Source: Synergistaceae bacterium
GTDB taxonomy: Bacteria; Synergistota; Synergistia; Synergistales; Synergistaceae
Direction: 5' to 3'
DNA: 32,720 nt
Assembly: GCA_031263445.1 (NCBI GenBank)
Contig: JAISFV010000031.1
Span: forward strand, 1 to 32,720
A program made the position numbers and the translations under genes. The notes under the pieces are model-generated. The model ran no database searches. It saw only the letters and a list, made by a program, of their open reading frames with translations, and was not told the origin of the DNA. Shown piece after piece: positions 1,428 through 5,491 of this stretch (position 1 is the stretch's first letter; each line of letters opens with the position of its first letter).

Positions 1428-3155
1428 TCACGGGTACTCGATGGCGCTCTCTTCGAGCGAAGTAGTCTTCCGCGCGATCACTTCCACCAAATCCATGACC
1501 GTGGTCATCGACGCGCCGATGTCGCTGACGGCTTCCGTCATCGCTGATGTCGCGCGCGCCGACTCAGCCGACGTATCCTGAGCTGCCTTCACGGTCTCTT
1601 TGCATTGACGCGCCAGGTTTTCTATTTCATCTGCGACCACCGCGAAACTTTTCCCCGCGTTTCCGGCGCGTGCCGCCTCTATCTTGGCGTTCAGGGCGAT
1701 GATGGTGATGTAGTTCGCTATGAGGTCGATTGAGTGTGCCATCGTGCCGTATTGCCTGACAGCCTGGTTTACAGAGTCGAACTGTTGCGATATGCGCCCG
1801 ACGCAGTTCTGAAACGTGGCGAAATGATCCACGATCTGTTTCGTGTTTTCCGACACGTCGTCGTGGATCTGCTTGGCCGACAAAAATTCGTCGTGCAGGT
1901 TGCTGCGCATCTGCTGAACGCAGTTCGACGGGAGGTTGACGCCAAGAGCGATTTTACGGGCCATATCGAGGCAACTGTTGGAGCCGCACGCGCCGCAGTC
2001 GTAATTCCGTTCCCAGTCTTCCTCCTTGCGCATCTTAGCGAACGCGTTTTCGATTTCAAGTTCACTTATGTCGCGGATCGACACTCGCTCAGGGGAGTAG
2101 TTGCGCTGGAAGTCGCTCAGTTTGAGCGTTTTATCGAAGCTATCGTAGAGTTCCGTTATATAAGCGCGGTCACGCCCGCCAGGGGATTCAAGCCTTTGGG
2201 CTTCCATGACGGCGTTGATTTCAAAGGCGTTGCGCTTATGGTCGCAGCCAGTGCCGAGGTTGCAGCCTTCCTGGCAGTTCAGCACGTCGAACAGCTCTGG
2301 CAGGTTTCTCTCCTGCTGTTTGCCGAATTCGTCAAGATCTGCGTACACGCGGCTTTGCCCTTCGGATTTGTCGATGCGCATCGTTTTGCCGAGATAGAAT
2401 TCCACGTTTTCCCTCAGCCCGCCCGGCATCGGGAAGATGCGCCCCAGCGCGCTTTGCTGATGCTCGAAGGTGACGGTTTCGTCAGGCAATTTCAATTTAT
2501 GCGATTCGATATAGTCCCAAAGCTTCTTAAATGTCACGTTATATGAAATGAGTCCGGTAGCCTCGAATTCGTTCGCCTTGGCTATGCAGGGCGACAGCGC
2601 GGCGATTGGTTCCCTCACACCGTCATACTTTCGCATATATACAGCCAGGCACAGCATCGGGCTATGCACGGGCGACAGGTATTTCAGCAAGTCGTTGTCA
2701 TACTTCAGTACATAGTTGACGATTGCGGGGCATGGCTGCGTTATAATCGGGCCCGGGTGATTCTTTTCAATGTAGCGGATATACCCCCACGTGCAGATAT
2801 CCGCGCCGAGCGAGACGTCGTAGAGCTTTGCCACGCCTAGCCCTTTGAGAAGCGCGTAAAGGCGTCCTGATTCAGGATTGTTCGTCCTGCTGGCTGGCGC
2901 TACTATAAGCGCCATGCGGACGCCTTTCGACAGATCGGCGAAGAACTTATCAGTATCATCCTCGTAGTAGCGCGCGCTGTGGCGGCATGCGTCGATACAC
3001 GCGCCGCACGCGATGCATTTGTCGGGATCCGTGCGCACCTTGATGTCCCCATTTCCATCTGAATACGCTATGTTGGCCACCTCGACAGGGCAAACGCCAG
3101 TACAGCGGTTACAGCCGACGCATTTTTCCACATCGGAATGTACCAAATTTCTCAC
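1428..3155 (-). CDS. Sensory [FeFe]-hydrogenase-like protein fused to methyl-accepting chemotaxis output domain
   Basis: A 575-residue soluble fusion. Residues 1-60 hold two 4Fe-4S motifs (C12/C15/C18/C22 and C47/C50/C53/C57). Residues ~75-320 are an [FeFe] hydrogenase large-subunit domain with degenerate H-cluster motifs: TQPCPAI (C142), SPCIAK (C190) and NCQEGC (C294, C298). Residues ~385-412 form a further CGACGSNSC Fe-S motif with C412. Residues ~430-570 are a coiled MCP signalling domain whose tip is IIALNAKIEAARAG and FAVVADEI. No membrane segment is present. The cysteine that normally relays protons in motif L1 is Pro141, as expected for a sensor rather than a catalytic enzyme. The start is GTG 3155, nine bases after AGGAGG; an in-frame ATG at 3239 has no good site. 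It probably senses H2 or redox state and signals to CheA/CheW or a regulator. Confidence 0.85.
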   Translation of the reverse strand: MRNLVHSDVEKCVGCNRCTGVCPVEVANIAYSDGNGDIKVRTDPDKCIACGACIDACRHSARYYEDDTDKFFADLSKGVRMALIVAPASRTNNPESGRLYALLKGLGVAKLYDVSLGADICTWGYIRYIEKNHPGPIITQPCPAIVNYVLKYDNDLLKYLSPVHSPMLCLAVYMRKYDGVREPIAALSPCIAKANEFEATGLISYNVTFKKLWDYIESHKLKLPDETVTFEHQQSALGRIFPMPGGLRENVEFYLGKTMRIDKSEGQSRVYADLDEFGKQQERNLPELFDVLNCQEGCNLGTGCDHKRNAFEINAVMEAQRLESPGGRDRAYITELYDSFDKTLKLSDFQRNYSPERVSIRDISELEIENAFAKMRKEEDWERNYDCGACGSNSCLDMARKIALGVNLPSNCVQQMRSNLHDEFLSAKQIHDDVSENTKQIVDHFATFQNCVGRISQQFDSVNQAVRQYGTMAHSIDLIANYITIIALNAKIEAARAGNAGKSFAVVADEIENLARQCKETVKAAQDTSAESARATSAMTEAVSDIGASMTTVMDLVEVIARKTTSLEESAIEYP

Positions 3156-3421: not shown

Positions 3422-4465
3422 TCAGAACAGCATGGTCACCAGCGGGTAGAAGGTGACTATGCTGATTATACGGGCCGTGTGGAATACCGAAGCGGTAAAG
3501 GTGTCGGCGCCGATCTCTTCGGCATATACCGATATCTGGCTTATGCCGGCCGGGGCGGCGCACAACAGGCAGGTCACGAGATCCAGGCCGGTGTACTTGT
3601 ACAGCAAAAACGCGAACAGCGCGCTCCCTGCGATCATTACGCCAGTCACTGCGAGGGCGGGCATGAGCAGATTGCCCAGCGCGGACACGGCTTCGGGCGT
3701 CAGGCGTTCCCCGGTCACCATGCCGAGCGTTATCTGGGCGAAACAGCGTATGCGCGTGTCGTACCGATAACTTTTCCCGATGGCTGTGGCGTAAGCGCCG
3801 CTCGCGGCCATCGCGCCGATCAGGGCGCCGGTGGGGATGTCGAGCATCTTGCCTGCCACCGCCCCGACGAGCGACACGAAAACGAGCGCGGCATAGTTGC
3901 CCCGCTCAAAGAGGGGAAGACCGCTTTTCCCGCTGGACACAGGTCTGGCATGATCCTTCCTGTCACCGATTTTTCCCGCTATCTTCGCGAAGCAGGGAAT
4001 CAGCATGAGGAAGGTCACGACCCTGAAGGTCTGCATGAACGCGATGACGGACGCGTCGGCGTCCACGGATATGCCGTAGATGATCATCTCCGCGATGCCG
4101 CCCGCAGCGCCGCTGATGAGCGACGTATGGATGTCCAGGTCTGACAGGCCGTACAGCGCGAATCCCGAGGCCAGGGACAGGGCGATCATGCCTGCTGACA
4201 GTGACAGCACCGGGCGCGAGAGCCCGAGGATCTGCCTGAACACGTCCCTGCTGATCAGCCGGCCCAGCATTATCCCGATCAGCGCGTTGGAAGTGAACGA
4301 GACTGCCCACACAGGAAATTCCGGATAGTGTCCCGTGATGTTGATCAGGCCGCAGGCGAACATCGAGCCGAGGAGGGCAGGGGTGGGGATTTTGAGCCTG
4401 TCGAATAGCAGGTAGCCGGCGCTGCCGACGAGGTACGAAAAGAAAAAACCGCCCAACTGATGCAT
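3422..4465 (-). CDS. AbrB-family integral membrane protein (putative transporter)
   Basis: A 347-residue, very hydrophobic protein with two homologous halves, each holding a G-A/S-M/x-A-x-G-x-x-N-type segment: LLGSMFACGLIN near residue 31-42 and LIGAMAASGAY near residue 215-225. This duplicated layout matches the AbrB family (once labelled ammonia monooxygenase, PF05145), thought to be membrane transporters or regulators with unknown substrate. It should not be confused with the AbrB DNA-binding regulator. The start at ATG 4465 follows AAGGGAGA at a good distance. Its last ~20 residues run directly into a polar end. The neighbour downstream on the same strand is the hydrogenase-MCP fusion, 266 bases away, so co-transcription is uncertain. 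Confidence 0.8.
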   Translation of the reverse strand: MHQLGGFFFSYLVGSAGYLLFDRLKIPTPALLGSMFACGLINITGHYPEFPVWAVSFTSNALIGIMLGRLISRDVFRQILGLSRPVLSLSAGMIALSLASGFALYGLSDLDIHTSLISGAAGGIAEMIIYGISVDADASVIAFMQTFRVVTFLMLIPCFAKIAGKIGDRKDHARPVSSGKSGLPLFERGNYAALVFVSLVGAVAGKMLDIPTGALIGAMAASGAYATAIGKSYRYDTRIRCFAQITLGMVTGERLTPEAVSALGNLLMPALAVTGVMIAGSALFAFLLYKYTGLDLVTCLLCAAPAGISQISVYAEEIGADTFTASVFHTARIISIVTFYPLVTMLF

Positions 4466-4666
4466 TGAATAATCTCCCTTTAAGTAAATACCGGCGCAAG
4501 GGTTTAAATCTTCACCCTTCGGGCTTCTGACAATAAATCAGCCCTCCTCGGCATAAAGAAATATTAACACTTTTTAGGCGTTGCGTATGCGCTGTTTTGG
4601 TGATATTTTCTCGCAAGAGGTATCCATCGCTCGAAATACGAGGAATCGGGGACGGAGGCTGGGAGG
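4466..4666. promoter_or_regulatory. Divergent intergenic region between AbrB-family gene and flavodoxin-ferredoxin gene
   Basis: A region of about 200 bases that must hold the divergent promoters. I see an inverted repeat AAGGGT (4498-4503) / ACCCTT (4514-4519) close to the AbrB-family start, and AT-rich stretches at 4540-4570. No promoter pair is convincing enough to place. Confidence 0.3.
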
Positions 4667-5491
4667 ATGAGGAGCCGGAAGGTTGTAACGGCGGTCTTCA
4701 CGGGGACGGGCAACACCTTGCTCATGGCGGAGGCGCTGGCTGGCGAGCTGAAGGGCCTGGGGAAGGAAGTAGCGCTCGCGCCGATGGAGCGGCGGGGCAT
4801 TTTTGAGTCCTGCTTGAAGGAATACGGGGACGACGCTGCGCTGGGGCTCGCGGTCCCTGTCGCGTGTTTTTCCACGTACCCGACGGCGTGGCGGTTTATC
4901 GACTCGCTCCCGGAGGCGTGCGGGCGCGAAATCTTCCTCCTGGCCACGATGGGCGGCATGGGTGGAGGGATGGAGGGACCGGTCCGCCGCGCAGTGGCGC
5001 GCAAGGGATACGCACCGGTCGGCGCGCTCTTGGTCAGGATGCCTGGAAATTATGGGAATAAAAGTATCGATGCCGAAAAAAACAAAGGGATAGAATCTGC
5101 CGCGAAGGGGAAAATAAAAACCTTCGCGCGGTGCCTGGCCGACGGAAAGGCGGTCTGGGGCCAGGGCGTCCCGCTCGTTTCGGGTCTCACAGCGTCGCTC
5201 GCCCACGGGCGCAAGCCGTGGAATCTCTTCCACTCGATGTTCCCGATCGAGGCGTCGGCAGAAAAGTGCGTCGGGTGCGGGCAATGCCGGAGGCTCTGCC
5301 CTGAGGGTAACATTACGATGAAGGAGGGGCACGCGTTTATCGGGCCTGACTGTGAATCCTGTCAGCGCTGCGTGGCATTTTGCCCGGCCAGGGCGATCGG
5401 CGTCCCTGCGAAGCCTGCCGCCCAGTACGCCGGCGCGCCGCTCGGCGCCATCCTGTCGCTGATCGGGGAGACGGGCGCGGATTGCCGATAG
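4667..5491 (+). CDS. EFR1-type flavodoxin-ferredoxin fusion protein
   Basis: A 274-residue fusion of a flavodoxin-like domain and a bacterial two-cluster ferredoxin. The FMN phosphate loop is FTGTGNT (residues 11-17); the MGGMGGGMEGP loop near residue 105 fits the second flavin-binding stretch. The C-terminal part has CVGCGQCRRLCP (about 201-212) and CESCQRCVAFCP (about 229-240), the ligands of two 4Fe-4S clusters. It would carry electrons inside the cell between low-potential donors and a flavin. The partner enzyme cannot be told. The ATG at 4667 has GGAGG eight bases upstream. No operon partner is visible; the next gene is 240 bases away behind its own promoter. Confidence 0.88.
   Translation: MRSRKVVTAVFTGTGNTLLMAEALAGELKGLGKEVALAPMERRGIFESCLKEYGDDAALGLAVPVACFSTYPTAWRFIDSLPEACGREIFLLATMGGMGGGMEGPVRRAVARKGYAPVGALLVRMPGNYGNKSIDAEKNKGIESAAKGKIKTFARCLADGKAVWGQGVPLVSGLTASLAHGRKPWNLFHSMFPIEASAEKCVGCGQCRRLCPEGNITMKEGHAFIGPDCESCQRCVAFCPARAIGVPAKPAAQYAGAPLGAILSLIGETGADCR

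Follow-up and report, generated by a model that had tools for sequence, protein, structure and literature searches.

Is a [FeFe] hydrogenase that ends in a chemoreceptor hairpin an enzyme of H2 metabolism, or does it serve a swimming cell as a sensor? The gene that raises this question lies on contig 75 of a draft Synergistaceae genome (2.70 Mb, 93.8% complete), and this contig, 32,720 nucleotides long, is the window that we analyzed. An earlier note, made from the sequence alone, had read the product as a gas or redox sensor that feeds chemotaxis rather than an H2 enzyme. The domains of the protein, together with the maturase and chemotaxis genes of its genome, support that reading, and the fusion is probably a sensory-type [FeFe] hydrogenase with a chemotaxis output.

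Architecture of the fusion protein

The gene lies on the minus strand, with an AGGAGGT ribosome-binding site just 5′ of a GTG codon at 3155. The interval 1428–3155 proposed in the earlier note was correct, and its residue numbers agree with this start. The features, listed with their coordinates in the window, are as follows.

1428..3155, minus strand: putative sensory [FeFe]-hydrogenase/MCP fusion gene, 575 amino acids, GTG start at 3155, stop at 1428
2985..3125, minus strand: two N-terminal [4Fe-4S] sites, residues 11–57 (Pfam Fer4_10, 5.3e-10)
2253..2912, minus strand: H-cluster domain, residues 82–301, with L1 TQPCPAI, L2 SPCIAK and L3 NCQEGC
1917..2003, minus strand: C-terminal Fe-S site, residues 385–413, with C387, C390, C395 and C412 (FeS PF04060, 1.3e-05)
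1440..1919, minus strand: chemoreceptor helical hairpin, residues 413–572, with helices 413–496 and 498–572
1659..1730, minus strand: hairpin tip, residues 476–499, IDLIANYITIIALNAKIEAARAGN, QTN triad absent

Because the protein is 78–84% identical across almost its entire length in three other genomes, with a whole-protein dN/dS of 0.11–0.16, the gene is no chance reading frame. The peak Kyte-Doolittle mean over 19 residues is 1.2, which indicates no membrane segment and hence a soluble protein. The order of modules that had been read by eye (two 4Fe-4S motifs, an H-cluster domain, a third Fe-S motif and an MCP tip) was recovered by a scripted motif search and backed by Pfam, with every domain exceeding its cut-off. 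At the N terminus, KCVGCNRC starts at residue 11 and KCIACGAC at residue 46, supplying C12, C15, C18 and C22 to one cluster and C47, C50, C53 and C57 to the other. The H-domain matched Fe_hyd_lg_C (PF02906; 2.5e-24, 86.7 bits against a cut-off of 22.1). Its L1 motif spans residues 139–145 and contains P141 and C142, SPCIAK starts at residue 188 (C190), and NCQEGC starts at 293 (C294 and C298).

To judge conservation we used an alignment of 76 sequences, the window's included; some of those without MCPsignal had been shortened for alignment or carry a kinase. All four H-cluster cysteines are kept, as the earlier note had claimed, and are invariant (76/76), as are the four C-terminal Fe-S cysteines (76/76); the N-terminal [4Fe-4S] cysteines are conserved in 74–76 of the 76. 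The note had also called the H-cluster motifs altered, with Pro141 at the proton-relay position. The residues are indeed there, but they do not set the fusion apart from its own clade, in which they are the norm: Pro occupies position 141 in 66 of the 76 sequences, S188 is found in 73 and N293 in 53. Across the sensory sequences surveyed previously, 17% had Cys at the relay position, ~43% Ala and ~10% Pro (PMC10055695).

The hairpin matched MCPsignal at residues 449–562 (9.7e-16, 58.5 bits against a cut-off of 34.6). Its arms comprise 81 and 82 residues flanking E493, or ~12 heptads each, and the distance from the LNA motif to the C terminus is 88 residues, versus 166–191 in five other MCPs of the same genome. 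Neither the consensus methylation site [ASTG][ASTG]xx[EQ][EQ]xx[ASTG][ASTG] nor a relaxed form of it was found in the hairpin. An AlphaFold2 model built from the 76-sequence alignment (mean pLDDT 89.6, pTM 0.76) terminates in two long helices, at residues 413–496 and 498–572. When the model was searched with Foldseek, the best solved (PDB) matches were [FeFe] hydrogenases, with E values as low as 1.7e-19; the predicted structure thus assigns the H-domain to the hydrogenase family, as had been proposed.

Relatives and class assignment

A quick maximum-likelihood tree placed the fusion among mostly MCP-fused sequences, and the branch separating its clade from other sensory and catalytic [FeFe] types had an SH-aLRT of 100. 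The comparison with other [FeFe] types that the earlier note had called for therefore puts the fusion in a sensory clade dominated by MCP fusions. In this clade Fe-S, H-domain, Fe-S and MCP is the commonest layout, with MCPsignal present in the aligned part of 51 of the 76 sequences. Our genome scan for relatives retained the best 80 loci of a longer list, and hosts among the matches listed were Synergistaceae, Fibrimonadaceae, Desulfovibrionaceae, other Deltaproteobacteria, Spirochaetes, Lachnospiraceae, Ruminococcus, Bacteroidales, Planctomycetes, Acidobacteria, Holophagaceae and Ignavibacteriae. The close relatives among these matches (L058–L060) are Synergistaceae MAGs, whose isolate codes suggest insect guts as their source.

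The nearest match listed outside the genus group, from Fibrimonadaceae (L061), is an MCP fusion at 53% identity. It shares an H-domain branch with the fusion (SH-aLRT 99), as do proteins from Synergistaceae (L090), Desulfovibrionaceae (L062) and Treponema (L063) that have a histidine kinase where the fusion has its MCP; the sensor part of these four is 42–53% identical to that of the fusion. Because three of the four end in a kinase, the output module has been exchanged on this branch. In the same sensor clade, twelve Ruminococcus/Oscillospiraceae loci (L065–L068, L071–L073, L081, L085, L086, L092 and L135) have a tail of ~140–170 residues without a recognizable MCP tip, so that their output may differ from chemotaxis.

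A congener (G003, 93% complete) yielded no close match to the fusion, which therefore seems dispensable. The flanking genes encode an AbrB-like membrane protein, an EFR1 ferredoxin, Tgt and Sua5, with no hydrogenase or chemotaxis gene among them, and the fusion gene stands alone. As candidate operon partners we rejected all four, none of which was seen in the examined flanks of L058–L060. The patchy occurrence of the fusion and flanks not common to its relatives suggest transfer or loss. The EFR1-family ferredoxin near the fusion (4667–5491, plus strand, opposite to the fusion) matched NF038196 at 119.2 bits.

The earlier note had considered an MCP output unusual for a sensory hydrogenase. This view did not hold: HydDB defined [FeFe] group C2 in 2016 as 'chemotactic (putative)', combining a sensory-type H-domain with a methyl-accepting chemotaxis protein output and with H2 sensing as the proposed role (PMC5037454). 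Given this definition and the presence of MCPsignal in 51 of 76 aligned sequences, the MCP output is a hallmark of the class. The MCPsignal match and the position in the tree, among other such fusions, place our protein in C2, an assignment that rests on architecture and phylogeny rather than on C2 reference sequences. The fusion therefore adds a member to a known class, from which it differs in its non-consensus MCP tip; what unusualness is left to it is modest and lies in that tip.

Among characterized proteins, TmHydS and TamHydS resemble the fusion in their N-terminal [4Fe-4S] sites, an H-domain with a relay residue other than Cys (Ala in both, Pro in the fusion) and a C-terminal [4Fe-4S] site. 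Unlike the fusion, both lack an MCP hairpin: the last module is a PAS domain in TmHydS and the Fe-S domain in TamHydS. With Ala at the relay position TmHydS is slow yet active (PMC10055695), and the characterized group C and D sensory enzymes respond to H2 even though they are slow (PMC10055695, PMC10407848, PMC13104023). In the literature that we searched, MCP-fused [FeFe] hydrogenases appear only in class-level mentions, with no experimental study of any C2 protein, and the sensory hydrogenases characterized there either have a PAS domain or lack an output domain.

Host genome and the proposed signal

The same genome encodes HydE (540 bits), HydG (610 bits) and HydF (547 bits), one CheA, one CheW, one CheV-type (CheW-receiver) protein, CheR, FlhA and six further MCPs. 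The search for hydEFG, cheA and cheW that had been suggested thus found every one of them. The earlier note had named three findings that would count against its reading, namely an H-domain outside the hydrogenase family, a genome without maturases and a lack of chemotaxis machinery; none applies, since the [FeFe] fold, the maturases and the chemotaxis genes were all found. Its suggestion that the CheA/CheW partner may be special fared less well: the genome has a single CheA, CheW and CheV-type protein, and a second CheA/CheW set, considered as a dedicated partner, was not found in it.

We consider it likely that the fusion is a cytoplasmic chemoreceptor that uses a slow, C2-type sensory [FeFe] hydrogenase as its sensing end and biases swimming along H2 gradients. 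H2 would alter the state of the H-cluster, and the H-domain and C-terminal Fe-S domain would change shape, passing the signal on mechanically rather than via a product. The signal would then enter the coiled-coil hairpin and alter the packing of its ~12-heptad arms, the tip would modulate the single CheA via CheW or the CheV-type protein, and a swimming bias along H2 gradients would follow. The route from H-domain change through hairpin packing to CheA modulation is proposed by analogy with TmHydS and with a group D sensor, in which H2 induces a secondary-structure change without reduction of the C-terminal cluster (PMC13104023). H2 sensing and taxis are inferred, and with them the loading of the cofactor, H2 as the ligand, the contact with CheA/CheW and the sign of the response. 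H2 sensing via C2 chemotaxis receptors has been proposed since 2016. At 575 amino acids the receptor is compact, and its genome pairs the full set of maturases with only one CheA, one CheW and one CheV-type protein, so that it is a tractable case for testing whether H2 steers swimming and for asking by what means an H-cluster drives the hairpin of a chemoreceptor.

The same fusion might instead respond to a signal other than H2, with its Fe-S clusters and H-cluster reporting ferredoxin redox state, CO or O2 for energy taxis. The three further Fe-S sites, nearly or fully invariant, favor this possibility, as does the finding that in a group D relative under H2 the N-terminal cluster was reduced and the C-terminal one was not, so that several redox inputs are possible (PMC13104023). 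We nonetheless regard a non-H2 signal as unlikely, because the strict conservation of the four H-cluster cysteines (76/76) and the complete set of three maturases point to a functional H2 site, although the maturases serve the genome's other hydrogenases too.

The departure of the hairpin tip from the QTN consensus

The tip of the fusion reads IANYITIIALNAKIEAARAG, and YITIIALNAKIEAARAG starts at residue 482. Among the 51 tip-bearing aligned sequences, positions 482–484 are Q in 39, T in 43 and N in 40, whereas the fusion has Y, I and T; the departure from the usual QTN text described in the earlier note is therefore real. Counting this triad, about eight otherwise well-conserved positions of the tip carry a residue other than the majority one; E512 replaces the R or K of most relatives and S503 their G. 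The MCPsignal hairpin and the conserved tip core (LNA.IEAARAG and F.VVA.E) are retained. The genome's other MCPs whose tips we read (L009 was left out) have the canonical QTN tip, QTNLLALNAAIE(A/S)ARAG. By sequence, the closest solved structure is a soluble chemoreceptor (PDB 3g6b/3g67, 4.2e-12) that shares the LNA.IEAARAG core; its tip reads ARETNILALNATIEAARAG, and that of the fusion, placed after a hydrogenase sensor, reads ANYITIIALNAKIEAARAG. The hairpin is also nearest in sequence to the tip fragments 4jpb_B and 3ur1_C, both from CheA-CheW complexes.

The odd tip is common to the three close relatives, and over residues 470–525 dN/dS is 0.03–0.11, under the whole-protein value and indicative of strong purifying selection; the tip is therefore maintained and not decaying. 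As a source of the odd tip we rejected the small soluble MCPs of related genomes, since those examined carry QTN or QTK tips. In related genomes, soluble proteins of ~290 amino acids (L139–L143) combine an N-terminal domain, Rossmann-like by eye, with a short MCP hairpin and a QTK tip.

It is conceivable, if rather doubtful, that the rebuilt, group-specific tip couples the H2 sensor to CheA/CheW differently. It might, for instance, do so apart from the arrays that the other receptors form, their C-terminal arms being roughly double the length; the rebuilding would then provide a separately wired channel for H2 taxis. We find it improbable that the altered tip, with H2 still sensed, is uncoupled from the standard CheA/CheW array and engages another partner or serves as a scaffold. 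The replaced triad, the atypical E512 and S503, the canonical tips read in the genome's other MCPs and the Ruminococcus branch without a recognizable tip all fit such uncoupling; the low dN/dS of the tip, its retained core and the single CheA and CheW of the genome argue against it.

That the protein is a catalytic hydrogenase with a coiled coil only for dimerization is hardly credible: all H-cluster ligands are present and the H-domain fold is intact, but Pro141 replaces the relay Cys expected of catalytic groups A and B1, NCBIfam scores fall far under the group A/B1 cut-offs (TIGR02512, 85.9 versus 405.95 bits; TIGR04105, 119.1 versus 450), no nearby partner gene is common to the relatives and the hairpin exceeds the MCP cut-off.

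The genome encodes four PF02906 proteins. Its second sensory-type [FeFe] hydrogenase (L012, 2451–3800) has 449 amino acids and a C-terminal Fe-S motif without an MCP, and the ORF that follows it (4149–4907) looks by eye like a PHP-domain protein. In two group A-like hydrogenases of the genome (L001 and L002), L1 reads TSCSPGW versus the canonical TSCCPxW.
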